Origin: a virus
Reading direction: 5' to 3' (one strand)
DNA: 22,078 nt
Virus record (IMG/VR): IMGVR_UViG_3300025869_001450
Coordinates: 1-22,078 of that record
Shown here: positions 2,594-19,080 of the stretch, piece by piece
Position numbering within the stretch: the first letter of the stretch is position 1
How the letters are laid out: each line of letters starts with the position of its first letter
Program-made: the position numbers and the translations under genes
Notes under the pieces: model-generated
Told to the model about the DNA's origin: nothing
The model's input: only the letters and a program-made list of their open reading frames with translations
The model's database searches: none

Positions 2594-2601
2594 TATTTAT
2601 A
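2594..2601 (-). promoter_or_regulatory. T4-type late promoter before gp13
   Basis: The minus strand reads CTTATAAATATAT here and contains the exact T4 late promoter octamer TATAAATA. It ends 19 bases before the gp13 ATG at 2574, with AAGGAT as ribosome binding site in between. The same octamer at similar spacing precedes the genes at 19052 and 20052. The stop codon of the upstream acetyltransferase gene (2597-2599) lies inside the octamer, so the cargo region abuts the neck-gene promoter exactly. Confidence 0.75.
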
Positions 2602-3091
2602 AGATTTCGTTTATTGCGATACAGTTTGGGCCAAATTCTACGCCCTCGTCTATCCACCCCCCAATCTTGCGAAACCCCACACTTTCATATGCAGGCAGTG
2701 CAGATTTCCTTGGCATAGTCCAGATAATTCTGCATTCTTCTTGTTTCGCACTATTTATAGTAAGTTTTAAAAGCATATTTGACACTCTGTGACCCCTATG
2801 TTCTGGACTTACATACAACCCTCTGGACCTGTAAATATTATCATTCGTCTTAAACCCACTATTGACACCTATAAGTTTACCATCTGATTTTGCTGCCCAG
2901 AAGGTAGGTTCATACTTCCATATTGTATCTTTCTGTTTTGTTATAGATATGTTTCCATAACCTTCCCACAATTCCGCATCCCATGACAGGGAGCTTCGAG
3001 ATTCTATTTTACTTACTCTGTTAGGCCACAGACCTTCGTTCCAAAGGTCATATATTTCCTCAAAGGTAGTCTCAGAATATTCACAAATCAT
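2597..3091 (-). CDS. GNAT-family N-acetyltransferase
   Basis: The 164-residue protein has the GNAT acetyl-CoA binding signature: strand 4 LYVSPEHRG leading into RGHRVS at residues 99-104, the relaxed Q/RxxGxG/A loop. A C-terminal ALPAYESVGFRKIG block follows at 131-144, the usual motif B with Ala, Tyr and GF. It would transfer an acetyl group from acetyl-CoA to an amine or hydroxyl; the acceptor cannot be read, although amino-sugar or peptide modification fits the neighbours. It stands alone on the minus strand between the inverted plus-strand cassette and gp13. Only 15 bases separate its start from the divergent gene at 3107, and no Shine-Dalgarno is visible before its ATG. Confidence 0.85.
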   Translation of the reverse strand: MICEYSETTFEEIYDLWNEGLWPNRVSKIESRSSLSWDAELWEGYGNISITKQKDTIWKYEPTFWAAKSDGKLIGVNSGFKTNDNIYRSRGLYVSPEHRGHRVSNMLLKLTINSAKQEECRIIWTMPRKSALPAYESVGFRKIGGWIDEGVEFGPNCIAINEIL

Positions 3092-3106
3092 ATTACTATA
3101 TATAAC
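3092..3106. promoter_or_regulatory. Short AT-rich divergent spacer
   Basis: Fifteen bases (ATTACTATATATAAC) separate the divergent starts at 3091 (minus) and 3107 (plus). The spacer has TATATATA-like content on both strands but no exact late octamer, and no purine-rich ribosome binding site in either direction. Promoters for these genes must overlap this spacer or lie inside the opposing coding sequence. Calling it a bidirectional promoter is inference. Confidence 0.3.
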
Positions 3107-3733
3107 ATGAACGAAAACAGAATTGGTATGGTATCAACATCACGAAGTGGTTGTACAGTTTTTCGTAGAGCAATATGTAATATATACGGGATGGCAGACT
3201 CCAATTCTTGGTTGAAAAAAAATGATTATCAGCACATAGAAGAAACACCTTTCTCAAACCAACCACATATACTCAAAATTTTAATTCATTATGTTCCAGA
3301 AAGTAAATTGGGATTTGTTCTCAACGACATGCCTAAGATATGGTTGTACAGGGACGATGAAGTAAGACAGTTTTTAAGTCATGTTGCAAGACTGCACACC
3401 AAAGTAAATCATGTATATGAATCAGATGGTCAACCGATACTAGATGACAACTCTGTTATGGCAACCAGAAATCAGTTTGATATCTTTATGTATCGACGTA
3501 AGCTCTTTTGGAAGGCATGGAAGGTTTATGGATTTATCAAGAACGAACCCCTGATAAAGTTTGAGGACTTTTTGGAAAACCCAACTGAGGTTGTTGAAAA
3601 CCTAGAGGAGTGGTATTGGAAACAGTTTAGATTTGGCGCACCAATTAAATTTCCAATGCCACACAAGATTCAAATGGACTATATAGAAAAGTTTGCAAAC
3701 TACGAAGAGATACTGGAGTGGTTTAATGAGTGA
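3107..3733 (+). CDS. Sulfotransferase-like P-loop protein 1
   Basis: The 208-residue protein starts with a PAPS-sulfotransferase-like 5'-phosphosulfate binding loop, TSRSGCT at residues 11-17, after a short hydrophobic strand. A conserved-looking IWLYRDDEVRQFLS lies at 78-91, where the 3'-phosphate binding Arg/Ser region is expected. KFEDFLENP at 151-159 is a common C-terminal sulfotransferase feature. It would transfer sulfate from PAPS to a hydroxyl or amine, plausibly on a sugar. It is shorter than most carbohydrate sulfotransferases. The gene is on the plus strand, the first of three co-oriented overlapping genes, with no visible Shine-Dalgarno; ATG at 3128 is an alternative start. A generic P-loop nucleotide-binding protein is the main alternative. 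Confidence 0.68.
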   Translation: MNENRIGMVSTSRSGCTVFRRAICNIYGMADSNSWLKKNDYQHIEETPFSNQPHILKILIHYVPESKLGFVLNDMPKIWLYRDDEVRQFLSHVARLHTKVNHVYESDGQPILDDNSVMATRNQFDIFMYRRKLFWKAWKVYGFIKNEPLIKFEDFLENPTEVVENLEEWYWKQFRFGAPIKFPMPHKIQMDYIEKFANYEEILEWFNE

Positions 3734-4487
3734 TTTTTGTATTGTGTGCGTAACCCGTTCTGGTTCGTATTACATAATGGAATATATGTGCAGAGTGTTT
3801 GGTCTTGCCGAAGGAAATGAATGGTTTGGAAGGAACAAAGAGGTTGACCTAACAAATCAATTTGAATTAAAAACAAAAAGAATTGATATTGATTTTCATG
3901 TTAACGAGGGGTTGTTGAGTGATCAGGATATCAAAAATCGATTGAGACATCTTGAAAATTTTCCTATACCGTATTGCATAAAATCAATGCCACCACAGTT
4001 TACCAACACAATTGAATCTGTCAAGCTTCCTCTTGAACAAAGGATAGAAGTAGCACAAGACATACTTAAAGACTTTGATCTAATATGGTTCAAGAACGAA
4101 GATAAGATTTCCCATTTCTGTTATGAGTTGACTTGTATTCGGTGTAGTTCAGCGGGTTATCCTCGACCCAGAGAATATGGAATATATGATTCTGAAAAGA
4201 GAGTAACACCACCAGAAAATTCATTTACCGCAACAGTAGAAGATTTTGATAAATTTATGCGACGTGAAGAGTTCACGGATGCCGTGATGAAAACTTTCAC
4301 ATGTCCTGTCGTAACCTATGACGACTTTGTGAAAAATCAAGACCAAGAGATTCAAAGGATTGCCGACTATTACGATTTACAAATGCAAGACGTATATAAA
4401 ATACCTGTCATACACAACCCAGACTATAGAAACATATTTACAAATTATAGTGAGATTGAAAAATGGTTTACACAATACCAGAGATGA
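3726..4487 (+). CDS. Sulfotransferase-like P-loop protein 2
   Basis: The 253-residue protein has an N-terminal TRSGSYY loop at residues 10-16, followed by a helix. WFKNEDKISHF (121-131) occupies the 3'-phosphate-binding position and TYDDFVKN (197-204) corresponds to the FEDFLENP block of the preceding gene. The two are distant paralogues of the sulfotransferase fold. I chose ATG at 3726, which overlaps the upstream stop by eight bases, rather than an upstream in-frame ATG at 3693 that would add residues before the P-loop strand. Its stop overlaps the next gene as ATGATGA. With the APS kinase encoded about 1.1 kb away on the opposite strand, a PAPS-dependent sulfation step is a reasonable inference. 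Confidence 0.66.
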   Translation: MSDFCIVCVTRSGSYYIMEYMCRVFGLAEGNEWFGRNKEVDLTNQFELKTKRIDIDFHVNEGLLSDQDIKNRLRHLENFPIPYCIKSMPPQFTNTIESVKLPLEQRIEVAQDILKDFDLIWFKNEDKISHFCYELTCIRCSSAGYPRPREYGIYDSEKRVTPPENSFTATVEDFDKFMRREEFTDAVMKTFTCPVVTYDDFVKNQDQEIQRIADYYDLQMQDVYKIPVIHNPDYRNIFTNYSEIEKWFTQYQR

Positions 4488-5035
4488 TGAGCGGTCAGTG
4501 GTTAGAAGGAGAAGTTCTAACCCGTGATAACTATAATGATAAGTTCATAGGACAACTTGCAGACCTGATGGCATCCGTTCACGGTATAGTTACAAAGTCT
4601 CCTCGTATTCCCAAGATGCAGGGCATCGTTGATAGTTTAGAACATTGGGATAATTTTACTAAACAGGCTGTAGAAGAATACTACGGAATACGATCAGAGT
4701 TAAAACACACCGCATATCTTCACGGAGATATATGGGCAGAAAACGTGATAGTAAATGATGGAAGTCTTATCGGGCTAATTGATTGGGAACACGCTGACGT
4801 AGGTGACCCGCATTGGGACTTTAGAATGATCCGTAGATGGATAGGTTGGGACGGTCTTGAAGAGTTGTTATTCTACTATAACGCCAGCACAGGTTTGCAA
4901 TGCAAAAGAAAATACATAGAAGTATTAGACAAGATATCATTGTGTAATTCTAGACAAATACGAAATTTCACCGACCCATTGTTCACTGAGTATATCAAAC
5001 TCTGGCCGTCTATTCCACCTCAAAAGTCTCATTAG
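4484..5035 (+). CDS. APH/choline-kinase-like phosphotransferase, C-lobe only
   Basis: The 183-residue product carries the catalytic half of an APH-family kinase: HGDIWAENVIV at residues 80-90 (Brenner motif, catalytic Asp82 and Asn87) and IDWEHADVGDPHWDF at 99-113 (metal-binding Asp100). It begins at the hinge segment (GQWLEGEVLT, then LADLMASVHG). The roughly 80-100 residue N-lobe with the ATP-binding lysine is absent, and the gene just upstream does not encode it. Either the gene is 5'-truncated or the protein works without the usual N-lobe. ATG at 4484 or 4487 overlaps the stop of the preceding gene; an in-frame ATG at 4463 adds only seven residues. Small-molecule or sugar phosphorylation fits the context better than antibiotic resistance. 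Its 3' end overlaps the convergent gene at 5010 by 26 bases. Confidence 0.75.
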   Translation: MMSGQWLEGEVLTRDNYNDKFIGQLADLMASVHGIVTKSPRIPKMQGIVDSLEHWDNFTKQAVEEYYGIRSELKHTAYLHGDIWAENVIVNDGSLIGLIDWEHADVGDPHWDFRMIRRWIGWDGLEELLFYYNASTGLQCKRKYIEVLDKISLCNSRQIRNFTDPLFTEYIKLWPSIPPQKSH

Positions 5036-5345
5036 ACTTATTAAATACTCTAACTGTACCATCTTCTTCTGTAACCCTACAGGTGATATTATTTGCAGAC
5101 ATATATGTTCTTGTTGCGGCAGATTTATTTGCAAATATATCATCGTTTTTATTAATAATAATATTTGTGTAATCTTCTTTTGAAGAATAAACTACTTCCA
5201 TAGTTGAAGTCAACTCATCATCACTTAAAACTCCTGTCCTAGAAATTGTAATATCGGAATAAAATCTTAAGTCAGTCCATTCTTCGGGCCATTTGGTATC
5301 TGTATCTGGTCTAGTCATAACTCTAGTTATTGTGTATGTTGCCAT
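5010..5345 (-). CDS. Small hypothetical protein, 111 residues
   Basis: I do not recognise this 111-residue protein. It is Thr/Ser/Asp-rich, with alternating short strands (MATYTITRV, DITISRTGV, TMEVVYSS, ITCRVTEEDG), no Cys cluster, no membrane segment and no catalytic motif. The overall look is a small beta-rich protein, possibly virion-associated. ATG at 5345 has a clear GGAGAT ribosome binding site and overlaps the end of the nucleotidyltransferase gene by 23 bases, so it is the last gene of the minus-strand cargo series. It ends convergently with the APH-like gene (26-base overlap). A TATAAATA lies 88 bases upstream at 5433-5440 but inside the preceding coding region and at atypical spacing. 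Confidence 0.6.
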   Translation of the reverse strand: MATYTITRVMTRPDTDTKWPEEWTDLRFYSDITISRTGVLSDDELTSTMEVVYSSKEDYTNIIINKNDDIFANKSAATRTYMSANNITCRVTEEDGTVRVFNKSNETFEVE

Positions 5346-5664
5346 TTCTTATCTCCGTTGCAGAAATCTTTTCAATTTCTTCTCCCAATTGTTCCTGTTC
5401 AATCTTATAACCAACATCTCTTCCGTATGTTATATTTATAATGTTGGGAACGTGCATAATGATATAATCTACATCATATTCATATCCATGATTTTTAAGA
5501 TCAACAATAAGGTCTGGTTGGTCGAACCATCCCTCACCAGTGTCTCTTACCATTATTACAACTTGTCCAGTTTTTGCGTGAGCTCTCTTGAAAAGTTCTC
5601 TGTGTCCTTGATGCCATGGTTGAAACCGTCCAAGCATTTGTACAGTTGGTTTACGTCTATCCAT
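5323..5664 (-). CDS. HxGH-motif nucleotidyltransferase
   Basis: The 113-residue protein has the two hallmarks of the HIGH nucleotidyltransferase superfamily: GRFQPWHQGH at residues 12-21 and ISATEIR at 100-106 (the ISxTxxR motif). The family includes glycerol-3-phosphate cytidylyltransferase, NMN adenylyltransferase and ATP sulfurylase. The GRFQPxHxGH form resembles NadM/NadR and short phage proteins. It would couple an NTP to a phosphorylated substrate, possibly to activate a sugar or alcohol phosphate. The start at 5664 has AAGGAT as ribosome binding site. The first 36 codons overlap the 3' end of the APS kinase gene in another frame, an unusually long 109-base overlap that contains the catalytic HxGH. 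The substrate cannot be assigned. Confidence 0.82.
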   Translation of the reverse strand: MDRRKPTVQMLGRFQPWHQGHRELFKRAHAKTGQVVIMVRDTGEGWFDQPDLIVDLKNHGYEYDVDYIIMHVPNIINITYGRDVGYKIEQEQLGEEIEKISATEIRNGNIHNN

Positions 5665-6020
5665 TTTGAAATCCTTATATTATAATCTTTGGGTTCTATG
5701 AAAATTCTATTGGTATCTTCATATTTTCCGACACCTATTGTTGCCATCCATATTGTAAAGTCTGCGTCAAACTCTCGCCGTGTTTCTTCTGTGGGACAAA
5801 TGAAGTCTGCAACTGCAACTCCACCAGCCATGACCACACCATCTGAAAGGTGTTTCATTCTTTGTGATTGTCGAATACGTCCCTCTGTAGAGAAGTCCCA
5901 ATCATCGTATTTCTCTCTTACTTGATCTGCATTTATCCATATACCAAATAAACTTTTGGCCAGAGGTTCAGCAAATGTACTCTTACCTGATCCCGGTAAA
6001 CCCATCACTAAAATTTTCAT
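5556..6020 (-). CDS. Adenylylsulfate (APS) kinase-like protein
   Basis: The 154-residue protein has a Walker A loop GLPGSGKST at residues 7-15, NADQVRE at 30-36, DWDFSTEGRIRQSQR at 40-54, and KYEDTNRIFIEP at 99-110, in the order and spacing of CysC-type APS kinases. APS kinase phosphorylates adenylylsulfate to PAPS, the donor for sulfotransferases. Two sulfotransferase-like proteins are encoded nearby on the plus strand, so a sulfate-activation role is attractive, although phage homologues of this fold could act on other substrates. ATG overlaps the preceding radical SAM stop as ATGA. The last 32 or so residues, after SKW, lie wholly in the overlap with the nucleotidyltransferase gene and do not look like a family C-terminus. 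Confidence 0.8.
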   Translation of the reverse strand: MKILVMGLPGSGKSTFAEPLAKSLFGIWINADQVREKYDDWDFSTEGRIRQSQRMKHLSDGVVMAGGVAVADFICPTEETRREFDADFTIWMATIGVGKYEDTNRIFIEPKDYNIRISKWIDVNQLYKCLDGFNHGIKDTENFSRELTQKLDKL

Positions 6021-7513
6021 GTTAAAAAAACCTCACTTACATATTTTTTATTTAACTCAACTGCACCATCATAAATTTCATTTTCAAAAGATTTTCTATC
6101 TTCCACACTCTTGAATTTTTGGTGCATATAATTCCAATCGTATTTATCATCCAAAATATTCAAATTCATAATTGACATACCAGATTGAGCAGATTGCACC
6201 AAACTAATATCTATATTATTCTCGTAGAATTTTTTATTAATGTCCTGAGCAAAAACGCTACACTCAGCTGAAGTCCAAGTATCATTGACCCATCCATCAC
6301 GATAACCACCATGCGGGTCACCCCCAAGATCGTCTGTTAAAGTATATCCATATTTTTCAGCATTCTCATCAAATTCACTAAAAATACCTGTGCCCCTACC
6401 ACCACGATTTCTGTATATACCCAAACCATTTATTGATATACTGTCTATTGCAGTTTCCTTGTTGATTATCATAGACGACCATTTCTCAAGAGTCTCTGGT
6501 GTTTCATGGGGAAGACCTGCTATGAGTCCAGCATGAAGCACTGAATTTTCACCCAGTGATTCTTTTACCTTTTCAAGAGTTCTGAGAACTTTGTCGGTAG
6601 GTAGTCCTTTACCAATTGATTTTGCAGATTCATAATTAAGTGATTCTAACCCAAAGAAAATAGATTTAGTTCCAATGTCTCGCAGAATAGAGATTTGTTC
6701 TGGAAATCTCTCCAACAACTCCAAACGTATATATGCCCACAATCCACTATAAGGACTAGTTGCATCTTTCACCTTTTTAAATCTCAACAATTTATCTGTT
6801 GTCTCGTTGAATGTGTCATCACTAATCATATAATATTTGGTATTGAAGTTCTCATGGTTGGATAATAGTTCGTCATATAAACTTTTTTCTGTCCTGACAT
6901 AATCATCAGTAGGCAATCTACCTAAAAATGGGAACGCACAAAACTTACATTTAAAACGACATCCCCTAGCAACCATCAGTGGCAATAACTCTCCCCTAGA
7001 TACTGTATCATTTTTTCCAAACAATGGTTGTTGGTTGGGGAATGTAAATAATTCTTCATTTGCATATAACTTTTCCTCTATTATTACTGGTGCAGAATCA
7101 GAATCTTTTAAATATTTTAAAATTGAATTATCACTAATACCATGAAAAATATTAGAAATCTTATCACCATATAAATCAAAGAACCCCCAACTATGTCTAC
7201 CATTACCACCAGTAATAATATCCACATCGGTATGATTAAAATACAAATAGTCTATTAATGGCCTAAATTTTTCTGGATCATCCATAAATGTTGTACTAAA
7301 CCCAAAAAATATTGTATCACCAGAAACTACATCATCAAGATAATCTTTAAGTTGTTCAAAATTATTTTCAATAATGAACATAATATTATCAATTACTTTT
7401 ATGTTGTATCCATGCAATCTGCAAATAGATGATATTGAATATGACCCAGCAGACTTAGTAGGTACTGCTCCAGCACTTTTCATATCATTGAAGATGAATC
7501 CATGATATTTCAT
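6017..7513 (-). CDS. B12-binding-like radical SAM protein
   Basis: The 498-residue protein has an N-terminal Rossmann-like half (about residues 1-140, with FFGFSTTFMDDP and DIITGGNGRHSWG) resembling the B12-binding domain architecture. The radical SAM cluster CRFKCKFC follows, with Cys185, Cys189 and Cys192. After it come segments such as KSIFFGLESLNYESAKSIGKG and AGLIAGLPHET that are typical of the elongator/MiaB-like HemN-type core. Such proteins perform radical chemistry such as methylation or ring formation. The usual B12-ligand DxHxxG is not evident, so cobalamin binding is doubtful. It is coupled on both sides by ATGA overlaps to the asparagine-synthetase-like and APS kinase genes. The substrate is unknown. 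Confidence 0.85.
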   Translation of the reverse strand: MKYHGFIFNDMKSAGAVPTKSAGSYSISSICRLHGYNIKVIDNIMFIIENNFEQLKDYLDDVVSGDTIFFGFSTTFMDDPEKFRPLIDYLYFNHTDVDIITGGNGRHSWGFFDLYGDKISNIFHGISDNSILKYLKDSDSAPVIIEEKLYANEELFTFPNQQPLFGKNDTVSRGELLPLMVARGCRFKCKFCAFPFLGRLPTDDYVRTEKSLYDELLSNHENFNTKYYMISDDTFNETTDKLLRFKKVKDATSPYSGLWAYIRLELLERFPEQISILRDIGTKSIFFGLESLNYESAKSIGKGLPTDKVLRTLEKVKESLGENSVLHAGLIAGLPHETPETLEKWSSMIINKETAIDSISINGLGIYRNRGGRGTGIFSEFDENAEKYGYTLTDDLGGDPHGGYRDGWVNDTWTSAECSVFAQDINKKFYENNIDISLVQSAQSGMSIMNLNILDDKYDWNYMHQKFKSVEDRKSFENEIYDGAVELNKKYVSEVFLT

Positions 7514-8580
7514 ATCGTTAGGTAATCCTGTTTCATATATTTCATAATATTTTTCCTATTAACAACCTGACCATTTGATGTTATGGCCATTGCATTGTAA
7601 TTCGTTGGTATAGGTAAAGACATTTCACTTTGCACATCAGGAGGCATATTAGTCTTTACCATACTATACGCATAATCCTTATCCCACCTTGCAATAAAAT
7701 CCCTTATGGACATCTTGGTCTTCAAAAATTCTTCTGGTTTGCTCCAATAATTAGTATGCCAAACTATCTCACGATCAATGTGTTGATTGATCGCAAACTT
7801 CTCTATCTGTGGTGATAGGAAGAATGGTTGATAATGACTCATATCAAACGAATCAACTTTGATATTCTGCAAGAATCGAAAGGATTGTGTAAGTAATGTG
7901 TATTGTGTTATTTCCCACCAACGACTATGGTGATATTCATAGTCCTCCTCATAAGTATATCTTTCACTATTTATATACCTACTGTGTGGGTATCCCGTAC
8001 TACCAAATAATCTATCAGCTTCACATCCTGTAGTAAATATATTGTTAGATATATCAGCAGCACCAAAAATATTACCCTCATCTATTGTGTGTTTGGTAAA
8101 TGATATAATATCCTTATATGCCTTTGGATATTCTTTTATAGGTTCCCAACCAGAAGTCACTACATTTATCTGATCATATGGACACACTTCAGCAAGTGCA
8201 AGAAGAATAGCAACACTGTCAATACCACCGGAGTAGAAAACATCAATTATCTTACCCATGTCTCGCATCTCTGTTGCACGTTCCAACATAATGTCTGTGA
8301 AAGATGGTAGGTTGTCGGTATACTTATACTCAACTACTGGGTAGAAGTCATTACTGGTTCTGAACAAAAACTCCTCACCACCACCAAGTTTATCATTAAG
8401 ATACCAGCTAGGTTGACGATTTACATTCTTTAGTTGTCGAGACTCAAGTTCCAATAGAAATTTAAATTCTTCTTTGAAATCGTTATCAAACCTTTCCCAA
8501 TGTTCAAACCTAGGTAAGTTTTCAATATATGTCTTCCAAGCACTTCTGTAGTCGTCACTTAGGTAAACGAAACTGTTCAT
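7510..8580 (-). CDS. Asparagine-synthetase-like ligase (PP-loop domain only)
   Basis: The protein (356 residues from ATG at 8580) has the PP-loop ATP-pyrophosphatase motif YSGGIDSVAILL at residues 116-127, followed by a C-terminal region consistent with the synthetase domain of AsnB-type enzymes. These adenylate a carboxylate and form an amide. The N-terminal glutaminase domain with its catalytic Cys2 is missing; the first 110 residues are unrelated to it, so nitrogen would have to come from free ammonia, an amine substrate or another protein. Upstream in-frame ATGs at 8586, 8595 and 8628 exist, but 8580 minimises overlap with the glycosyltransferase gene (26 bases) and has a weak GGAATGATT before it. 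Amidation of a sugar acid, or lactam/amide bond formation as in beta-lactam-type enzymes, are possible roles. Confidence 0.78.
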   Translation of the reverse strand: MNSFVYLSDDYRSAWKTYIENLPRFEHWERFDNDFKEEFKFLLELESRQLKNVNRQPSWYLNDKLGGGEEFLFRTSNDFYPVVEYKYTDNLPSFTDIMLERATEMRDMGKIIDVFYSGGIDSVAILLALAEVCPYDQINVVTSGWEPIKEYPKAYKDIISFTKHTIDEGNIFGAADISNNIFTTGCEADRLFGSTGYPHSRYINSERYTYEEDYEYHHSRWWEITQYTLLTQSFRFLQNIKVDSFDMSHYQPFFLSPQIEKFAINQHIDREIVWHTNYWSKPEEFLKTKMSIRDFIARWDKDYAYSMVKTNMPPDVQSEMSLPIPTNYNAMAITSNGQVVNRKNIMKYMKQDYLTI

Positions 8581-9262
8581 AATCATTCCATTCATGAGGT
8601 TTGTTTCTGTGGTTTGTAAAATGTACAAACTTTATATCAGGATGAAACTCTCCACCCATATATATCCAATCATTACCTGTCTTTTCTTTATATTTTTCAG
8701 TCATACTGTATTGCCAAGTTCTGGTGTTTTTATAATCAATAACTTTATTATCTGCAACCCATCTGGTAAACCATTCGTCAGGAAGTGTAATAAGTTCTAG
8801 TCTCTCATTCACACTATCTCCTACAAAATATTGTTCTCCATTTACTGGACCTGTGGTAGTTCCGTTTTCAATGTAGAACTTTTGCCAATGGTGAATATCA
8901 CTCATAAACTTATCGTAGATATAACGACACTCCTTCGGATAGTATTTGAAGAACCCACCATTAATCTCATAAGTGTTAGAATCATTTCTCCACCATCCCG
9001 GCATCGCAAGAAACTGTCCGGGCTTGATTGGATAGTCAAACACCTTTTGATAATCGTTAACCAACAAAATGTCAATGTCCATCACACAGATAGGTTCATC
9101 AGTGTCCATCTGCATACCCCACATCTTGTTCCATTGCAAAGTGACAGATGGATGATATGGTTCACGGACCCAGATAAAGTTATACTCTGGTAGTTTATTC
9201 TCTAAGTATGTCTCATACTCTGGGCCATACTTTTCACCAATACGAACTGCTACGATATTCAC
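8555..9262 (-). CDS. Glycosyltransferase-like protein (DxD)
   Basis: The 235-residue protein has an N-terminal Rossmann-like region and MDIDILL at residues 61-67, where the metal/nucleotide-sugar binding DxD of GT-A glycosyltransferases lies. It also carries QFLAMPGWWRND and a C-terminal histidine segment HPDIKFVHFTNH that can complete metal binding, as in GT8-like enzymes. It likely transfers a sugar from a nucleotide-sugar donor in the cytosol; there is no membrane segment or signal peptide. The start is GTG at 9262, overlapping the SGNH stop as GTGA. It is a distant paralogue of the protein at 15529-16266 (shared GWW block and DxD). Donor and acceptor are unknown. Confidence 0.72.
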   Translation of the reverse strand: MNIVAVRIGEKYGPEYETYLENKLPEYNFIWVREPYHPSVTLQWNKMWGMQMDTDEPICVMDIDILLVNDYQKVFDYPIKPGQFLAMPGWWRNDSNTYEINGGFFKYYPKECRYIYDKFMSDIHHWQKFYIENGTTTGPVNGEQYFVGDSVNERLELITLPDEWFTRWVADNKVIDYKNTRTWQYSMTEKYKEKTGNDWIYMGGEFHPDIKFVHFTNHRNKPHEWNDYEQFRLPK

Positions 9263-11393: not shown

Positions 11394-11394
11394 A

Positions 11395-11577
11395 TTATTT
11401 CTTCTTCATGTACTGATTCCAACTTTTCTGTACATGTTTTGCTTGCTCTTCTACAGGAAGTTCTTTGAACTTATCATCATCGAACTCATAGATAAATCCC
11501 TTGTTTTCGTGATACTCTCTTTTCTTAAAAGTTGATAAGAACAGTCTGCATCTAAGAATAAATTTTTTCATACTCAT
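11395..11577 (-). CDS. Small basic/acidic protein, copy 1
   Basis: The 60-residue protein begins MSMKKFILRCRLFLSTFKK, a strongly basic amphipathic stretch, followed by an acidic middle (YEFDDDKFKELPVEE) and a lysine-rich end. The first half matches the 35-residue product at 16259-16366. Both copies start inside the 3' end of an SGNH hydrolase gene. That repeated arrangement and clear residue conservation make it a real gene rather than chance. I do not recognise the family. It could be a membrane- or partner-binding adaptor, or a short substrate/leader peptide for the radical SAM enzyme encoded immediately downstream; both ideas are inference. Confidence 0.68.
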   Translation of the reverse strand: MSMKKFILRCRLFLSTFKKREYHENKGFIYEFDDDKFKELPVEEQAKHVQKSWNQYMKKK

Positions 11578-11836
11578 TATAAAATATCTCTGCTATTAGT
11601 TTGTGACCACTTGCATTTGGGTGAGTGTCCTCATCCGAAAGTCTGTGATGATCCTCTAGTTTATCATCGAAAGAAAATCCACCTATATCACTCACGATAG
11701 GCCATCCAATGAAATTTGAAATTGGGTGTGGCCTATCTATAAGATATTTAGATAGATTATAAAAGTTTTTTCTATTAACCTCATCTGTCATACCTCTGTT
11801 TTGTCGTCTATTCTGATACAGAGAATATCCATTTTC
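11552..11836 (-). pseudogene. SGNH hydrolase remnant, copy 2 (C-terminal part)
   Basis: In this frame the sequence from about 11836 encodes a segment homologous to the C-terminal third of the two intact SGNH proteins. It includes NFIGWPIVSDIGG, a DDKLE stretch, and DEDTHPNASGHKLIAE with the catalytic Asp-His pair. The N-terminal part with the GCSYT nucleophile and Gly blocks is absent. Upstream of about 11836 the frame reads through the 3' end of the 449-residue gene and loses similarity. A deletion has therefore joined the end of that gene to the tail of an SGNH gene. A product from the in-frame ATG at 11791 would lack the catalytic serine. Confidence 0.7.
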
Positions 11837-13157
11837 TCTCCCACTGTTTTGTCGGTTTAGTTCCTTGGAACCAACACATATTTGCATATCCCAAAATCTC
11901 ATGTAGCGCCTCATATGCCCAGACGAGCTCGTCCAAGGTATATCGTGCATGTGACATATGATAACTGAATATATTACTAGCATCAAAGAATACGTTTCGA
12001 CCTCTTACGGTGTTAATCAACATAGTAGGATCGAACTCTATGAGGTTCATCAACCAGTAGTGTAAGTCTTGTTCTTCTCGCATCTTCTCTTGTAAAACTC
12101 TAAGTTCTTCATGAGTTCCCATTGAACTAGTTCTTTCGGTTGCAGGGTTATTGCCAGTATTATCAACAAAATTTTTGTCAACAACTTTTCTATAAACATA
12201 AAGGTCATCTAAAGACATATTCATATCAACGATGGTTTTTTTTGCATCAATATTGTCTTGAGTGTAGTCGTAGAATATTACTTCGCCACTGAAGTCTAAT
12301 TTATCAACAAGTAATTCTGCACTATAACCCGCTGTTGGAGAAAACAACACATCGAACTTTTCTGTTGGAATTTTTTTAAAATTCTCTGTGTTGAACATAT
12401 AAAACGATGGTTGTATTCTTGTCATGAAACGACTAAAATAAAAATCTTCACGATCTACATTATCTAAGTCTTTCCAAGCATCTTTGTGCCACGGTTTATA
12501 ATATGAGAATGCTTTGCGAGTTCTTTCCCCATGATCAAAATTAATAATCATAGGACGATCTTTTGGTTTAATCCAGTAAGGTGTGTAATCGTCATGATGA
12601 TTTTCTACACCACGTTCATATTTTTCCCACCGTTCATCCATAGGGGGGCAACCGATAGTTTTCCACATATCCACGTTTAGGTTAATATGTTGATGGTGTA
12701 GATATGCAGAAACATCTGGCCGAGCCATAATGTGACCCTTACAGTATTCTTCTGACTCAACAAAATCATAGAAATCCGTGATAGTAGTTATTTGGTTTGG
12801 TGTTCTTTTCTTTCCAGATTCAAAAAAATTTTGTCGCCACCTTTGATCAAAATGTTCTCCGTGGCCGACCATATCAAAAACCATACCAACAGATACAATC
12901 ATTGCGTGTGTATGTGTGCAGTTTTTCAAGTAGTCGTTGACTTCACTTCTATAACAGAACTGAACATCATGTCCAGTGCTTGCTCCTGTAAACCCACCCG
13001 ACACCATGAAAGTTGTTGTCTGTGTTTGTTTCTCTATACCAAAGTCCCATTCAAGCTTATCTGGATATACTACCAAGAACAAAAGATTAGGTTCCTTAAT
13101 CTTTATGTCTTTAGTTTCTGATTTCCAGAGACTTACAAATTCTTCAAAGTTTTTCAT
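11808..13157 (-). CDS. Unknown two-domain cargo protein, 449 residues
   Basis: I do not recognise this family. The N-terminal half has hydrophobic strands (LLFLVVYPD, HAMIVSVGMVFDMVGHGEH) and a HHQHINLNVDMWKTIGCPP block that could belong to a transferase. The C-terminal half has a Rossmann-like pattern, KFDVLFSPTAGYSAELLVDK near residue 270 and GEVIFYDYTQDN near 295, reminiscent of a methyltransferase or nucleotide-binding fold. It then has NTVRGRNVFFDASNIFSYH and ends with NMCWFQGTKPTKQ. The start is ATG at 13157, sharing one base with the upstream stop (TGATG); a GTG at 13160 is an alternative. The last 10 or so residues lie in DNA that in another frame belongs to the SGNH remnant, so the natural C-terminus may have been replaced. 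Confidence 0.6.
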   Translation of the reverse strand: MKNFEEFVSLWKSETKDIKIKEPNLLFLVVYPDKLEWDFGIEKQTQTTTFMVSGGFTGASTGHDVQFCYRSEVNDYLKNCTHTHAMIVSVGMVFDMVGHGEHFDQRWRQNFFESGKKRTPNQITTITDFYDFVESEEYCKGHIMARPDVSAYLHHQHINLNVDMWKTIGCPPMDERWEKYERGVENHHDDYTPYWIKPKDRPMIINFDHGERTRKAFSYYKPWHKDAWKDLDNVDREDFYFSRFMTRIQPSFYMFNTENFKKIPTEKFDVLFSPTAGYSAELLVDKLDFSGEVIFYDYTQDNIDAKKTIVDMNMSLDDLYVYRKVVDKNFVDNTGNNPATERTSSMGTHEELRVLQEKMREEQDLHYWLMNLIEFDPTMLINTVRGRNVFFDASNIFSYHMSHARYTLDELVWAYEALHEILGYANMCWFQGTKPTKQWERKWIFSVSE

Positions 13158-14200
13158 CACACATATACCCTATAATTCGATGTTCTTGCACTTTCACGGG
13201 TCGCATCTTTGCTAAAGGAACAGGTATTAGAACAAGGTTTCAGACATGTAGACTTGTCTTCCCAAGATAATTGCAACACATCATAAAACACATCGTTCAT
13301 AATTTCCTCTAAATTTTTCTCTAGGAGATTATTAGATGTGTTGTGATAATAGTCATCATAAAATTTCTGATCGCCAAGAAGATGTTTTGAAGAGGGAAGA
13401 TAACAACACGGCCAAACACGGCAAAGATAATCAATGTAAATAGAATTTGCTACTTGGAACTTACATATAATATCTTCAACCTCCTTATTTTCATAACGGT
13501 CTTTCTTTATATCTTCCCACTCTGGCCATAAATCCTGTGGTTCTAGCTTATACTCCTTTCCATGATAAGTGAAAGGTTCAACATCCATTCGATTTGAATA
13601 CTGATATGTGAACTTATGAAAACCATATTGTTTTGATAGTTTCTGTGCATCCTCAAGTTGATGTTGATTATGTTTGAATATAATCATCCTCCACTCTGCT
13701 TGTCCCCCAGCATCAATAAATGCAATTGCGTTTTCTATAATCTTGTCGTAATTTGCATTTATTCTATAGAGGGGTAGTGCATCATGAAGTCCATCCAAAC
13801 AGAATACTACTCGACTTCCCGCACTCTTACTATAGAGTTTTCCTAACTCAGACCACCACTCTTTTGATCTCAGTGACCCATTAGTACTAAGCAATATCCT
13901 TGCTCCGTTTTCAATTATATATTGGCTAATCTCATAGAAGTTGCTACTGGCAACATTCTCAGAAACAGTTCCATAGAATTTTATCAATCCTACATTACCA
14001 ATATTGTCAAACGATGTTTTGAAATCATCTAAAGACATTTGATAGTTATCCAGAGTTGGTAGGGGATTACCACTAGTATCAGGATTCTTTTGTAACACAC
14101 CGTCCTTAATTGTATTACGAGCGCACTGAGGACACATTAAATTACAAATGTTGTTCAACTCATAAGATGCATCAACTGGTTTAGTTAGATCAATCATCAA
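13157..14200 (-). CDS. Radical SAM protein with C-terminal Cys clusters
   Basis: The 347-residue protein has CNLMCPQC (Cys19, Cys23, Cys26) directly after an N-terminal strand, the usual radical SAM start, followed by SVxENVASSNFYEI and LLSTNGSLRSKEWW regions typical of the partial TIM barrel. The C-terminal third holds several cysteines (CKF, CRVWPCC, CLKPCSNTC) consistent with a SPASM-like auxiliary cluster domain. Such proteins often modify ribosomally made peptides or sugars. It overlaps the upstream oxygenase gene by 11 bases and shares one base with the next gene. The fragment at 10037-10333 is a truncated relative. The substrate is unknown. Confidence 0.8.
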   Translation of the reverse strand: MMIDLTKPVDASYELNNICNLMCPQCARNTIKDGVLQKNPDTSGNPLPTLDNYQMSLDDFKTSFDNIGNVGLIKFYGTVSENVASSNFYEISQYIIENGARILLSTNGSLRSKEWWSELGKLYSKSAGSRVVFCLDGLHDALPLYRINANYDKIIENAIAFIDAGGQAEWRMIIFKHNQHQLEDAQKLSKQYGFHKFTYQYSNRMDVEPFTYHGKEYKLEPQDLWPEWEDIKKDRYENKEVEDIICKFQVANSIYIDYLCRVWPCCYLPSSKHLLGDQKFYDDYYHNTSNNLLEKNLEEIMNDVFYDVLQLSWEDKSTCLKPCSNTCSFSKDATRESARTSNYRVYV

Positions 14201-14888
14201 TCTCTTTCAATACATCTTTACCAAACTGTTTAACTAGCGACCGCCTCATGAGTTCCTTACGTTCTTTGTTAAATCCCCCATGCATAATAAAATGAAACCT
14301 GTTCTCATTTGAACTGTTTAGGGCTTCGTGATTTACTCCATTGTCAAACCAGAACCCAGTACAATTTTCAAACGGCAGTTCTTCTTTTGTATCTGTGCGC
14401 CTCAGATAACAATTTTCAGGTTGATAGAACGCAAGATTGATTGCACCAGCGATATTTCTTACTCGACCTTCTTTTATTCTTTGCTCAGATGCATCATTGT
14501 GGTCTACAATAGCACCACCCGGCTCCAATAACATAAACCGCAAACGTCTGTAAGACTTATGTGGAAAGTCTTCCAACCATCTCTTAGTCTCAGGTGCGAC
14601 CTCTGCAATCTCAGTCCACCCCCAATCAACATCATTTTCAGAAAAACCATGACCCTCTGGATTTTTTGTGTGATGCCACCCTAGTGATGGGTCAGAACCT
14701 TTCTCCACAAAACTATGTATGGCCGCAGAACACCAACCATCTCCGTCACCGTATCTATGATCTACAAAGAACCCCTCATCATATACTGCTTGTGACTCTT
14801 GAATACAAACCTCTGGTATCTCTATATCAATCTTGAGATACCAAATATCATTATCTCTACACCAATCCACAATTTGTTTGTGTCTCAT
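14190..14888 (-). CDS. Aspartyl/asparaginyl beta-hydroxylase-like oxygenase
   Basis: The 232-residue protein has the core of the Asp/Asn beta-hydroxylase family of 2-oxoglutarate, Fe(II)-dependent oxygenases: LLEPGGAIVDHNDAS with His130 and Asp132 as iron ligands, a facing-strand Arg region (GRVRNIAGAINLAF), and GVNHEALNSSNENRFHF with distal His187 and the 2-oxoglutarate-binding Arg197. It would hydroxylate an amino-acid side chain, in a protein or free, using O2 and 2-oxoglutarate. It overlaps the methyltransferase gene as ATGA and the radical SAM gene by 11 bases. Within a glycan/peptide modification cluster, a virion protein or small peptide substrate is plausible but unproven. Confidence 0.82.
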   Translation of the reverse strand: MRHKQIVDWCRDNDIWYLKIDIEIPEVCIQESQAVYDEGFFVDHRYGDGDGWCSAAIHSFVEKGSDPSLGWHHTKNPEGHGFSENDVDWGWTEIAEVAPETKRWLEDFPHKSYRRLRFMLLEPGGAIVDHNDASEQRIKEGRVRNIAGAINLAFYQPENCYLRRTDTKEELPFENCTGFWFDNGVNHEALNSSNENRFHFIMHGGFNKERKELMRRSLVKQFGKDVLKEIDD

Positions 14889-15535
14889 CTACCAATTACC
14901 ATGAATCGTTTCATACCATTATTTAGTTCTTTTGTTCCAGAATACATTATATCAACAAGTTCAGCCTGTTCTGCCAGTTCATCTGGACCACTAACACAAT
15001 TTATATGATCATCCCACTGTTCATCATCTGTTGATTGCAAGACATAGAGATAATTTTTATTTTCATTTAATTTACGAAACCTAGACATAGGATACATATG
15101 TTCACAAGATGTATTAATTACTAAATCAAAATTTGCTGTTGAAACTGGTTTATACATAACATCATGCAATTTACATTCATAGAAACACTTTTGTTCAGAA
15201 ATATTATGCATCTTATATCTTTTATTAAACTTATAACTAAATTTTATAACATCAGGATCAATTTCCAAGTTAAGTATGTATTTTACACCAAGTTCATCAA
15301 CCAACAAAGGATTAATAAAATTTGCATACCAACCTGCTATAAGAAGAACCCTATCAATATTGATACCTAGATTTACAATCTCTGAAACTAACCAAAGTTT
15401 ACTTTGTAATTGGGAGTATGTTGATGCATCTCTAATTCTTTTCATACATTGTTTATAATCTTCTTTATCTGCCAATGAAAGAGCAGACTTCCAATCTTCA
15501 GCTGTATCAACCGTAAATTTTATATGATCTACCAC
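14885..15535 (-). CDS. Class I SAM-dependent methyltransferase-like protein
   Basis: The 216-residue protein shows a Rossmann methyltransferase layout. A divergent motif I (VLLIAGWYANF, residues 63-73) is followed by LNLEIDPD at 89-96, whose acidic residue would hold the SAM ribose, and FDLVINTSCEHM at 136-147, a motif IV form common in phage and bacterial small-molecule methyltransferases. The canonical GxGxG is replaced by AGWYANF. The start is GTG at 15535, overlapping the glycosyltransferase stop by seven bases; no in-frame ATG occurs before residue 31. Likely acceptors are sugar hydroxyls or carboxyls; this is inference from neighbours. Confidence 0.75.
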   Translation of the reverse strand: MVDHIKFTVDTAEDWKSALSLADKEDYKQCMKRIRDASTYSQLQSKLWLVSEIVNLGINIDRVLLIAGWYANFINPLLVDELGVKYILNLEIDPDVIKFSYKFNKRYKMHNISEQKCFYECKLHDVMYKPVSTANFDLVINTSCEHMYPMSRFRKLNENKNYLYVLQSTDDEQWDDHINCVSGPDELAEQAELVDIMYSGTKELNNGMKRFMVIGR

Positions 15536-16266
15536 AGTTCTTTTATCTCATCAGTATTAACGCCCTCAGTTTGAGAACTATTATTAAACAAACAAATTTT
15601 GTGGTCTTCTCTTATTTTCTTTTTCTCCATGTCATGTGGAAAAATATTTCCCTTGTACCATGAATATATATCTCCCTGTGGAAATCCCCGCAAAAATCCT
15701 CCATCTTCTTTCCAAGGGTCATACCAGTGGTGTGCAAGATAATTATCTAAGCTTGGTGATGTAAAGAAAACCACTTCGGGATGTTTCACAACATGATCCC
15801 ATACAGGCATCATCTGACCCTTCTTCCATACTATGACTGATGAATTAAGAGGTGTTGACTTATGCTTTGCATAGTTTTGCTTAACAGTATGAATATCATT
15901 CCACCAGCCACGAACAATCCATGGCTTGTCGTTAGGTAAATCAAAGAAATACTTTAAGTCTTGATGAATGATAACGTCAAGGTCAAGGAAAAGAAACTTG
16001 GAGTTATCAGAGAAATATCTATTGTCGCCGGGGATTTGGTGTTTAAACATATAACACTTACGATACGCCCAGAAGAAACCACGGTCTTCATCATAGAACT
16101 CGTCCAGTGTAGTTGGAATTGGAATGTGCCAGTCTTTTGTTGGTTTGTCAGTAAAACACCAGAACTTAAATGGAACAGAACAGTTTGCCTCGCATTGTTC
16201 TTTTAACTTCTCAACATAGGAGTCATCATACTTATCTCCCCACTTTATACATAATATATTATTCAT
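15529..16266 (-). CDS. Glycosyltransferase-like protein (DxD), second copy
   Basis: The 245-residue protein has FLFLDLDVII at residues 91-100, a GT-A-type DxD within a hydrophobic strand, preceded by a Rossmann-like N-terminus with FKFWCFTD. Downstream are IVRGWWNDIH and STPLNSSVIVWKKG. It resembles the protein at 8555-9262 in layout. ATG at 16266 is preferred because AGGA lies five bases before it and the overlap with the small-protein gene is only eight bases; in-frame ATGs at 16272 and 16281 would lengthen it slightly. It likely uses a nucleotide sugar in the cytosol. The acceptor is unknown. Confidence 0.75.
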   Translation of the reverse strand: MNNILCIKWGDKYDDSYVEKLKEQCEANCSVPFKFWCFTDKPTKDWHIPIPTTLDEFYDEDRGFFWAYRKCYMFKHQIPGDNRYFSDNSKFLFLDLDVIIHQDLKYFFDLPNDKPWIVRGWWNDIHTVKQNYAKHKSTPLNSSVIVWKKGQMMPVWDHVVKHPEVVFFTSPSLDNYLAHHWYDPWKEDGGFLRGFPQGDIYSWYKGNIFPHDMEKKKIREDHKICLFNNSSQTEGVNTDEIKELW

Positions 16267-16366
16267 CTTCATCCTGTTCATATATAAAATTGTTATTTTT
16301 ATGTTCGTATTTTTTAAAACGAGATAAGAAAAATCTTACCCTGTAAATAAATTTCTTAATGCTCAT
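16259..16366 (-). CDS. Small basic/acidic protein, copy 2 (35 residues)
   Basis: A 35-codon gene starts at ATG 16366 and encodes MSIKKFIYRVRFFLSRFKK followed by a Tyr/His/Asn linker and an acidic end (YEQDEDE). Residues 1-19 align position by position with the 60-residue protein at 11395-11577 (MS-KKFI-R-R-FLS-FKK shared). It overlaps the upstream SGNH gene by 11 bases and the downstream glycosyltransferase by eight. It lacks the lysine-rich extension of copy 1. Function is unknown. The conserved basic helix plus acidic tail suggests a binding peptide or a modified short product. Confidence 0.62.
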   Translation of the reverse strand: MSIKKFIYRVRFFLSRFKKYEHKNNNFIYEQDEDE

Positions 16367-17141
16367 TATATATCTCTTTGTATTGTTCATATAAAAAATC
16401 TGCAATAAATTTATGACCCGCAGCATTAGGGTGAGTATCGGTTCTAGAAATCCTAAATTTTGACCGTGATGGGTCTTTTTTATCAAGAATATCATCAATA
16501 CAATATCCACCAATTTCACTCATTAATGGCCAACCTATAAATTTGTCTGATATGTTATTTTCAATGTAATCAAGATAAGGACTTGTCAATATTTCATTTG
16601 CTGCTTCCCGGCGACCTTTTTGATTTCTAGGCCAACTGTCGTCAGTTGACAGATAACTGCTGTTCCAAAAAACAGTTTGTGTGCCTTGAAGAAACATGTA
16701 AGGAATATCACTTAAATTTTTTTCAGCATGTATGAATGTTCTCATAGTGTTGCGGGTTGCATGAAATTCGTTTTGTTTTTCTAAAATATATTTTCTCCCG
16801 TCTTTTAGCCAATCTTCTACATGGTCGTGATCAGTTATATTAGTCCATCTATTAAAATCTGTATGACATTGAAATCCCACTCTTCGCCACTCACTCCACA
16901 TCAAAACTACAAGACCAATATTCTTTTCCTTTAATGTAGCATCAACAGTTTTTGCCAAAATATAATCATTACCCGCACCAGATTTGCCTAGGTTGACACA
17001 TTCCATATCAAGCATATCTGCAAGGTGTTGCGGCCATCTTGGAAAATCAAAGTTTAAGTTAGGACTTTGATTTGAAGTTAAATAGTGCGATGTAAAACTA
17101 CACCCAATAGCAATTAGTTTTTTTCTAGAAGATTTTAACAT
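16356..17141 (-). CDS. SGNH/GDSL-type hydrolase, copy 3 (intact)
   Basis: The 261-residue protein has LIAIGCSFT with nucleophile Ser15 (residues 9-17), NLGKSGAG at 50-57, and a C-terminal DTHPNAAGH supplying Asp235 and His237. It is closely similar to the SGNH protein at 9259-10050 throughout, including RWPQHLAD, LDMECVNLGK and LMWSEWRR. ATG at 17141 removes a nine-residue N-terminal extension that would lie inside the carbamoyltransferase 3' end. It probably de- or trans-acetylates a sugar intermediate. It sits between the carbamoyltransferase (17-base overlap) and the small protein (11-base overlap). Confidence 0.8.
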   Translation of the reverse strand: MLKSSRKKLIAIGCSFTSHYLTSNQSPNLNFDFPRWPQHLADMLDMECVNLGKSGAGNDYILAKTVDATLKEKNIGLVVLMWSEWRRVGFQCHTDFNRWTNITDHDHVEDWLKDGRKYILEKQNEFHATRNTMRTFIHAEKNLSDIPYMFLQGTQTVFWNSSYLSTDDSWPRNQKGRREAANEILTSPYLDYIENNISDKFIGWPLMSEIGGYCIDDILDKKDPSRSKFRISRTDTHPNAAGHKFIADFLYEQYKEIYNEH

Positions 17142-18462
17142 TATATAATTTTGAAAACTCCATTGCATCGTCCCAAGTATCCACTATCGGCATACCCTTT
17201 ATATTTAGGGATGTGTTCAGAAGCATTGGACAACCTGTTTCATCATACCACGCTTCTAGTATTTGACGAATTACAGAACCGCAATTTTTCTTGACCACCT
17301 GTACTCTTGCCGTACCGTCAACGTGTGTAACAGAACTGTAATCGTGTTTAACCTTTGCGACAAACTGCATGTACTCGTTCATTGGCCCTTCAAAGTATTC
17401 GTCTGCATACTCTTCCAGAATGGCTGGTGCAAAGGGACGAAACTTCTGTCGTTTTTTAATATCGTTCACAGTGTCCTTGATGTCATATCGTGGATCACCA
17501 AGAAGTGATCGATTGCCTAAAGCTCTTGGTCCAAACTCTGCTCGACCATTTGCAATACCACACACCTTATTTTCTAACAGTTCTCCCACCACTTCTTTTG
17601 AGTTAATATCCCGACTAATAAAAGTTCCAAGATAGGGATGATTCCACTTCAACTTCTTTTTAAGAACCAACGCAGCTGCGCCCAGCGCACTACCAGCATC
17701 GCCGGGTGAAGGCATTATCCATATATTCTTACCTTTAATCTTTGAATTCGCAACACAGTTCAGCGCACACCCACCCATGATAACTAAGTTTTCATGGGGA
17801 CATAACTCTACCAGTTTAAGTAGTTCCCTCTCGTAGAGGTCTTGTATGGACGCTGCAAGGTCTTCTGGACGTGCTTTAGGGAATATATTTCCAACACCCC
17901 TATGGTTGTTTTCCCACAGATGGTCTTGCAAATCATATATGGGTTCACCAAATGCAGCCATACCCATAGTGATATATTCGTCCTCGTTAGGTTTCAGTCC
18001 TATACGTTGTGTGATTGCTGAGTAGAGAAGACCAAGGGAGTGTGGGTATTTCCATGTCATAATTTTCTTCATACTATCATTTTTGCATTTCCATATAGAC
18101 ATAGTGTCCCACTCACCGATTGCGTCGATGACTAGAACATTGCACTCATCAAATGGGGATGTATAGTAACCAGCTGCTGCATGACACTCATGGTGTCCAA
18201 AATACACATCGTATTTTCTACGAGGCTTCTGCCATTTTTGTCCAGCATAGATTCGGCGTAAGTTCTTACGAAAAGGTTTCTCGTAATACGCAACTATGTC
18301 GGGTTTATTGATTTTAGATGTAGGCAATTGTGTGGGATGTATCCACTTATCACCCTTCTTTCGACTATGACGTTCACTGTGTGAAGCAAAATGAATTTGG
18401 TCATTCCTCAGTAAGCAAATGCCAGCGTCATGAAACCCCTCCGAAACTCCAAGTATATTCAT
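17125..18462 (-). CDS. NodU/CmcH-family carbamoyltransferase
   Basis: The 445-residue protein matches the O-carbamoyltransferase family: N-terminal LGVSEGFHDAG, GHHECHAAAGYY at residues 89-100 (metal/active-site histidines), an ATPase-like Gly-rich segment MGGCALNC, then the YrdC-like C-terminal signature GRAEFGPRALGNRSLL at 306-321, RPFAP at 342-346 and NTSLNIKGMPIV. These enzymes move a carbamoyl group from carbamoyl phosphate, through carbamoyl-adenylate, to a sugar or antibiotic hydroxyl. From memory the family is usually 500-600 residues, so this is a compact version with both domains retained. It is the first gene of the cargo series, 14 bases after the 191-residue gene, with no late octamer in front, and so is probably read through from upstream. 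Confidence 0.92.
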   Translation of the reverse strand: MNILGVSEGFHDAGICLLRNDQIHFASHSERHSRKKGDKWIHPTQLPTSKINKPDIVAYYEKPFRKNLRRIYAGQKWQKPRRKYDVYFGHHECHAAAGYYTSPFDECNVLVIDAIGEWDTMSIWKCKNDSMKKIMTWKYPHSLGLLYSAITQRIGLKPNEDEYITMGMAAFGEPIYDLQDHLWENNHRGVGNIFPKARPEDLAASIQDLYERELLKLVELCPHENLVIMGGCALNCVANSKIKGKNIWIMPSPGDAGSALGAAALVLKKKLKWNHPYLGTFISRDINSKEVVGELLENKVCGIANGRAEFGPRALGNRSLLGDPRYDIKDTVNDIKKRQKFRPFAPAILEEYADEYFEGPMNEYMQFVAKVKHDYSSVTHVDGTARVQVVKKNCGSVIRQILEAWYDETGCPMLLNTSLNIKGMPIVDTWDDAMEFSKLYNVKIF

Positions 18463-19072: not shown

Positions 19073-19080
19073 TATTTATA
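19073..19080 (-). promoter_or_regulatory. T4-type late promoter before 191-residue gene
   Basis: The minus strand reads CTTATAAATAGA, containing the exact octamer TATAAATA. It is followed after 20 bases by the ATG at 19052, with AGGAG between. It lies in the 34-base gap after the structural gene that ends at 19087. As the last exact octamer at this spacing before the cargo series, it may also drive the carbamoyltransferase and following genes by read-through. Confidence 0.72.

Follow-up and report, generated by a model that had tools for sequence, protein, structure and literature searches.

The stretch of DNA analysed here (the window) comes from an uncultured virus and is 22,078 nt long (IMG/VR record IMGVR_UViG_3300025869_001450). 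Read along its minus strand, it encodes a fibre-like protein, s19087, s18477, an island of enzymes, gp13 and two tandem copies of gp14 (Table 1). The gp13-then-gp14 order, a mark of the T4-like (Kyanoviridae-related) structural region, is present, and in relatives gp15 to gp17 come next. An earlier note, made from the DNA letters alone, had placed about 16 kb of biosynthetic genes at 2597–18462, between the fibre-side genes and gp13, and this was confirmed by profile matches and by recurrence in more than 100 contigs. These ~16 kb hold some 20 intact non-structural genes and two truncated remnants; no open reading frame (ORF) in 2597–18462 matched any structural family. The island is modular: soluble tailoring enzymes are grouped around an invariant core (GT2, MT, AspH, u11808 and GT1), in a structural region bounded by T4-type late-promoter boxes.

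A fixed core at a recurrent slot

The core is conserved in both order and strand. Searching all fetched loci with the window proteins by tblastn gave 163 distinct contigs, of which 104 had at least two core genes, and GT2-MT-AspH-u11808-GT1 was identical in order and strand in 103 of these 104 (the set was partly gathered using core proteins, its size therefore being uninformative on frequency, and some contigs from a single sampling site are nearly identical, the counts not being independent events). As the order recurs in more than 100 other contigs, chance gene order is excluded, and the co-occurrence speaks against unrelated insertions, the outcome by which the earlier note would have been refuted. 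GT1 and gp13 shared a contig in 97 cases, on the same strand in 96 and usually with 0.5–0.85 kb between them. Among loci fetched with gp13 only, 30 contigs extended at least 3 kb upstream, and 21 of them carried a core gene. Median dN/dS was 0.06 for AspH, 0.07 for GT1, 0.09 for MT, 0.11 for GT2 and 0.14 for u11808, compared to 0.067 for gp13, and purifying selection on GT1 and AspH matches that on gp13 in strength. Neither u11808, GT1 nor AspH had a tblastn match among 50,697 deposited phage records.

The nearest deposited gp13 proteins are those of the SAR11 phage HTVC008M (66%), the OM43 phage Melnitz (63%) and the SAR11 phage Mosig (58%). In trees of gp13, which placed the window itself and its relatives, and of gp17, which placed the relatives, the uncultured clade of the window lies beside Melnitz, with HTVC008M outside. 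Relatives that have no island carry fibre genes directly against gp13, in line with the T4 gene order given in the earlier note. In Melnitz and the cyanophages P-HM1 and P-TIM40, the gene upstream of gp13 codes for a fibre protein or for another large protein, structural or hypothetical, and at least ten close IMG/VR contigs (e.g. L058, L061, L064, L080, L081) have fibre-like or large repetitive genes a few hundred bases from it and no island, the fibre-like or structural-like genes at these empty sites being called from sequence rather than by profiles. Empty sites are interleaved with module-bearing phages on the gp13 tree, which implies that the slot gained or lost its contents repeatedly. 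In the relatives L163, L190, L122 and L174 the order runs from VrlC through the island to gp13; the window stops before VrlC. The slot is also occupied in HTVC008M and Mosig, but by unrelated enzyme islands, with 2-oxoglutarate oxygenases and a ferrochelatase. In pelagimyophages, the stretch from VrlC to gp14 has been described as a large, nonsyntenic 'host recognition cluster' with glycosyltransferases and radical SAM cassettes (Zaragoza-Solas et al. 2020; PMC7029224). The location that the earlier note had highlighted is thus not new. In Mosig (L083 locus 15638–19965), ferrochelatase, heme oxygenase and phycocyanobilin:ferredoxin oxidoreductase (PcyA) annotations lie immediately upstream of gp13.

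An alignment-based scan of genome contigs for u11808 found one phage contig and two Bdellovibrionota contigs. The former (L211), from a Flavobacteriales metagenome-assembled genome, belongs to the same phage lineage and is not a bacterial locus. The nearest cellular relatives of the three core proteins tested are in Bdellovibrionota, with matches in 13 of the 369 genomes of a sample of this phylum. Here AspH and u11808 were found adjacent and overlapping (L212; hhalign E 5e-24 and 3e-18), as a single fused protein with either AspH first (L225, L226, L232) or u11808 first (L213), and as a longer fusion of ~1,020–1,070 aa with an additional N-terminal stretch (L233, L234, L235), which in L233 matches a gene of 313 aa next to the L225 fusion. 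That the two are fused in either domain order strongly indicates a joint action of AspH and u11808, as what would be one functional unit. Several twitch radical SAM genes surround the pair in L213, L236, L237 and L238 (up to five, in L236), and homologues of rSAM3 also occur around it in L213 and L238 (31% identity, E 8e-49 in L238). In L225 and L226, the fusions have as neighbours genes for methylmalonyl-CoA mutase, a MeaB-like and a propionyl-CoA carboxylase-like protein, named by eye and by ORF size.

Enzyme labels and structural flanks

The labels that the earlier note gave to the enzymes held to different degrees. Profiles support the GNAT, the APH-type and APS-kinase-like kinases, the nucleotidyltransferase, three radical SAM proteins, the hydroxylase and the carbamoyltransferase; sub-threshold matches, motifs or fold give weaker labels for the SGNH proteins, sulfotransferases, glycosyltransferases, amide ligase and methyltransferases. 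Its gene list needed correction, as one SGNH copy and a further radical SAM gene are truncated remnants. The carbamoyltransferase scored 123 against the NodU equivalog, short of the cut-off of 1000. The SGNH proteins are below the Pfam cut-off yet carry GCSxT and DxHPN motifs. rSAM3 just misses the Pfam radical SAM cut-off (28.8 vs 29.5), and scores only 32.4 against the twitch model NF033640 (cut-off 170). For u11808, the top Foldseek matches of the predicted fold were methyltransferases (E 1e-3), and VIA comparison gave Z of 9–11 over residues 245–447, to which nearly all rows were limited, rather than the N-terminal half. GT1 had no glycosyltransferase profile match, and with a mean pLDDT of 37 for its structure model we claim no fold for it; one relative of GT2 matched Glyco_transf_8 (GT8) at E 0.005. 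ST1 and ST2 are putatively 'sulfotransferase-like', a label retained on motif only: scores against PF00685 and PF13469 were 14.4 (cut-off 22) and 14.7 (cut-off 27), with a match E of 0.024 in the window and 0.0011 in one relative. Sequence profile searches of the PDB with u11808, GT1, AspH, GT2, MT, ST2 and the PP-loop protein found nothing significant. As hydropathy shows no evident transmembrane segment or signal peptide, the island enzymes appear soluble.

The kinase and nucleotidyltransferase at 5323–6020 are encoded in different frames, whereas PHROG 10255 is one fused protein. A split due to sequencing error was rejected, as the same overlapping layout is found in at least eight loci; dual coding or frameshifting is possible. 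On the fibre side, a piece of the fibre-like protein is 83% identical to the protein immediately upstream of gp13 in L069. The fibre-like protein had no profile match, and short tandem repeats at 21896–22056 code for TSTAAELNILDG within it. s18477 had no match in the phage collection. The gp14 copies are 70% identical over 222 aa, and the tandem duplication is present in many relatives; HTVC008M, Mosig and Melnitz have a single gp14 after gp13.

Table 1. Features of the window, listed from the fibre side to the neck genes, with AspH-u11808 fusions of Bdellovibrionota in the last line.
Feature	Position	Strand	Basis or remark
Fibre-like protein with TSTAAELNILDG repeats	20104..22077	-	Open frame; extends past window end
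Late-promoter box TATAAATA	20070..20077	-	17 nt before s19087
s19087, structural-like protein	19087..20052	-	Homologue (45%) near VrlC in cultured phage Mosig
Late-promoter box TATAAATA	19073..19080	-	20 nt before s18477
s18477, conserved gene at fibre-side border of island	18477..19052	-	Recurs in relatives
NodU/TobZ-type carbamoyltransferase, accessory	17125..18462	-	Pfam PF16861 and PF02543, both over cut-off
SGNH hydrolase-like, accessory	16356..17168	-	GDSL Pfam E 4e-4, below cut-off; alignment A6
GT2, core, GT-A-like	15529..16281	-	DxD motif
MT, core, probable class I methyltransferase, highly allelic	14885..15535	-	Weak assignment
AspH, core, Fe(II)/2-oxoglutarate Asp/Arg hydroxylase family	14190..14888	-	PF05118, 36.3 bits (cut-off 22.6)
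rSAM3, radical SAM with SPASM-like C-terminus, accessory	13157..14200	-	PHROG 21308, E 9e-20
u11808, core	11808..13160	-	Class I methyltransferase-like fold in C-terminal half
Truncated SGNH C-terminal remnant	11552..11790 (approximate)	-	
Small ORF	11395..11577	-	In several loci, its relatives follow an SGNH gene
rSAM2, twitch-domain radical SAM, accessory	10326..11393	-	NCBIfam NF033640, 188.7 bits (cut-off 170)
Truncated radical SAM N-terminal remnant with CxxxCxxC	10037..10333	-	
SGNH hydrolase-like, accessory	9259..10056	-	Alignment
GT1, core, GT-A-like	8555..9262	-	DxD motif; near gp13 in 97 contigs
PP-loop (SGGIDS) Asn-synthase-like ligase, accessory	7510..8628	-	SGGxDS motif only
rSAM1, rare accessory	6017..7513	-	Closest to B12-type radical SAM families
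APS-kinase-like P-loop kinase	5556..6020	-	Profile-supported
HxGH nucleotidyltransferase	5323..5664	-	Profile-supported; 109-nt overlap with kinase gene
Small protein	5010..5345	-	Family also between gp15 and gp16 in some relatives
APH-fold small-molecule kinase, opposite-strand block	4463..5035	+	PF01636
Sulfotransferase-like ST2, opposite-strand block	3693..4487	+	R-S-G-S/C motif, below cut-off
Sulfotransferase-like ST1, opposite-strand block	3107..3733	+	ST2 paralogue
GNAT acetyltransferase, accessory, frequent	2597..3091	-	PF00583; adjoins gp13
Late-promoter box TATAAATA	2594..2601	-	19 nt before gp13
gp13, neck protein / head-tail adaptor Ad2	1753..2574	-	PHROG 211, E 4e-41
gp14 copy 1, neck protein	797..1750	-	Pfam T4_neck-protein PF11649, PHROG 460
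gp14 copy 2	3..797	-	PF11649, PHROG 460; extends past window end
AspH-u11808 fusions	L213:9644-11689, L225:5928-8087, L226:5964-8099, L233:5756-8974, L234:290-3349		

Late promoters, cassettes and allele exchange

The T4 late-promoter box TATAAATA is found six times in the window, always on the strand of the core genes, compared to an expectation of 2.3; six copies were reached in 3 of 100 shuffles. Of the loci scanned, 106 of 114 have it ahead of gp13 and 17 of 43 ahead of s18477 (background 0.0058 per 60 nt), and none has it ahead of a core enzyme. With late boxes at the borders and none before the core enzymes, the core can therefore be read from the fibre-side late promoter, and it is reasonable, if unproven, to suggest that it is transcribed late from the fibre side together with the genes there. 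Satisfactory late-promoter detection was not achieved for pelagimyophages in PMC7029224, which makes this detection useful in itself.

The genes around the core vary. They comprise the carbamoyltransferase-SGNH pair, radical SAM genes, the PP-loop ligase, the kinase/nucleotidyltransferase, the opposite-strand kinase/sulfotransferase block and the GNAT. The carbamoyltransferase is directly followed by SGNH in 23 of 27 loci, and APH-ST2-ST1 forms a single block on the strand opposite gp13 in 20 loci. The gap between GT1 and gp13 holds a GNAT in some phages and a PP-loop protein in others, the latter carrying a cysteine-rich CPCGKCAKCKC motif in L002-type phages. In relatives, a conserved TATATATA element marks the region where ST1 and the GNAT start divergently (3092–3106 in the window), and is possibly a shared promoter. 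Elsewhere, a TRAP-type solute-binding protein (DctP, PF03480, E 3e-45) lies in the island between two PP-loop ligase-like genes (L014:3912-4856), and in L141, L146 and L148 VrlC-like pieces lie between the island GNAT and gp13, placing a structural gene downstream of the island.

Alleles of the core are also exchanged. In pairs of phages with gp13 at least 95% identical, MT ranges from 45 to 100% identity and u11808 from 43 to 100%. The window is a mosaic, 97.3% identical to L096 over 1075–9261 and 99.99% identical to L094 over 12680–22078, and its u11808 is only 55% identical to that of L096. We considered whether the window could be a chimera, as 9262–12680 has no independent copy, but the genes there (rSAM2, o10037, SGNH1, GT1) join by overlaps of 4–20 nt, making this unlikely.

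Possible targets of the enzymes

The probable role of the island is to make and decorate an unusual chemical group, carried by either the virus particle or the host surface. Our leading, though tentative, explanation is a late, hydroxylation-primed modification of a glycan or protein on part of the virion. The island would be transcribed late with the fibre-side genes, and a virion protein would be covalently modified in the cytoplasm during particle assembly. AspH, a 2-oxoglutarate hydroxylase working as a unit with u11808, would put on a hydroxyl or ready the acceptor, to which GT1 and GT2 would add sugars, with MT and u11808 making up a methylation step. The radical SAM proteins, carbamoyltransferase, SGNH proteins, PP-loop ligase, sulfotransferases, kinase/nucleotidyltransferase and GNAT would supply or add variable decorations. 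Exchange of alleles and cassettes would then alter the chemistry among close relatives, as expected for a surface-exposed, host-facing structure. Searches of eight module-bearing contigs found no undecaprenyl phosphate (Und-P) initiating transferase (PF02397), no Wzx-type flippase (PF01943) and no curli gene csgG; as regards a serotype-conversion (gtrABC-like) cassette, GtrA/GtrB models were not searched. The promoter layout and the absence of lipid-linked glycan machinery lead us to lean towards late modification in the cytoplasm.

Several observations weigh against a virion target. The late box before s18477 is absent from about half of the loci, and the opposite-strand sulfotransferase block, unreadable from the late promoters found, must therefore have another promoter. 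GT1 and GT2 are without profile or structural support, only one of the eight contigs in which lipid-linked machinery was sought approaches the size of a full genome, and product and target are both predicted from the genes. The enzyme alleles do not track s19087 strongly. (We rejected s18477 and s19087 as module-specific substrates, given that s19087 is also present in Mosig and covariation is weak.) Finally, the carbohydrate genes near AspH-u11808 in L233 and L212 fit a cell-surface polysaccharide equally well, and modification of the host O-chain is preferred by the authors of PMC7029224.

Remodelling of the host surface ranks close behind modification of the virion, and we regard it as a serious possibility, if not the favoured one. 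The lipopolysaccharide (LPS) O-chain or another envelope glycan would be altered, either blocking superinfection or allowing progeny to be released from receptor decoys. Carbamoyl, methyl, acyl and sulfate groups are frequent decorations of polysaccharides. AspH-u11808 has a carbamoyltransferase, a GT2-family-like glycosyltransferase and a glutamine amidotransferase in its neighbourhood in the Bdellovibrionota loci L233 and L212. For the glycosyltransferases of the same interval in pelagimyophages, O-chain modification and avoidance of coinfection have been suggested (PMC7029224). Against a host-surface target stand the missing Und-P initiating transferase and flippase, the position of the island between late promoters and the apparent solubility of the enzymes, none of which is decisive; host machinery could supply the lipid-linked steps.

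A non-glycan substrate is improbable. In this case a peptide, a tRNA or DNA base or a secreted small molecule would be modified by the radical SAM proteins, the 2-oxoglutarate oxygenase, the PP-loop protein and the kinase/nucleotidyltransferase. rSAM3 does resemble peptide-modifying SPASM/twitch maturases, with all NCBIfam matches far below cut-off, the AspH-u11808 cluster of L238 includes a QueC-family PP-loop protein, and L002-type phages have their cysteine-rich PP-loop protein beside GT1. However, we recognised no precursor-peptide-like gene, and the carbamoyltransferase, SGNH, sulfotransferase-like and GT-like proteins suit saccharides better. The PP-loop proteins of L002 and L238 have no detectable homology to each other, leaving a proposed relationship between them unsupported.

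It is very unlikely that the island is only hitch-hiking cargo, or fills up the genome without its genes working together. The truncated SGNH and radical SAM copies do indicate turnover, accessory content is highly variable, and it has been suggested that LPS gene clusters of cyanophages may serve as stuffer DNA (PMC3037559). For the core, this reading is largely refuted by its invariant order over 100 contigs, by strong purifying selection and by cellular AspH and u11808 being fused or adjacent; it is possible for individual accessory genes.

Hydroxylation followed by glycosylation has a viral precedent. In the Mimivirus L230-type collagen hydroxylase-glycosyltransferase, hydroxylation makes the site for sugar attachment and the two activities are coupled. 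The island shares with it the idea of coupled hydroxylation and sugar attachment; L230 belongs to another hydroxylase family, whereas here AspH would be coupled with u11808, as judged from genes. Mycobacteriophages Che8 and Rita encode glycosyltransferases, and their particles are reported to bear covalent glycans on capsid proteins (PMC11256854); that paper mentions no hydroxylase/radical SAM core, and the glycans were demonstrated there but are inferred here. The islands of Mosig (EXVC030M) and HTVC008M share the slot upstream of gp13, and Mosig has its own carbamoyltransferase, radical SAM, methyltransferase and Asp_Arg_Hydrox-annotated proteins. In contrast to the island described here, neither phage has a tblastn match to GT1, AspH or u11808, and the Asp/Arg hydroxylases of Mosig are at most remote relatives of AspH. 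The Bdellovibrionota AspH-u11808 proteins are homologous, fused or adjacent, and often accompanied by twitch radical SAM genes and rSAM3 homologues, but they are chromosomal, and no GT1/GT2/MT core was recognised beside them. The published host recognition cluster has the same interval (VrlC to the neck genes), fibre genes, glycosyltransferases and radical SAM cassettes, and is likewise found in T4-like marine phages. It was described as nonsyntenic, whereas we find a syntenic five-gene core by gp13, fixed in order in all but one of 104 contigs, together with allele exchange, late boxes and a cellular AspH-u11808 counterpart.

Compared to the openly accessible literature, what is new is the syntenic core, which is absent from deposited phages, its framing by late promoters, the rules that the cassettes follow and the AspH-u11808 unit of cells. 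AspH-u11808 with twitch/SPASM-type radical SAM partners may even be an undescribed system, common to Bdellovibrionota chromosomes and a large group of uncultured T4-like phages from the sea; hydroxylation would prime a heavily decorated virion glycan or residue, and phages would swap cassettes and alleles at the slot by gp13, although we consider this full account rather doubtful. A region published as nonsyntenic now has a core that is defined, selected and conserved, and within it two proteins can be named as a unit. The question of why so many glycan-like enzymes occur in T4-like phages that infect streamlined ocean bacteria can thus be tested on specific proteins. If the target is the virion, widespread marine phages would possess a large combinatorial system for modifying their particles; if it is the host surface, the island would represent an unusually complex system of superinfection exclusion in a lytic lineage.

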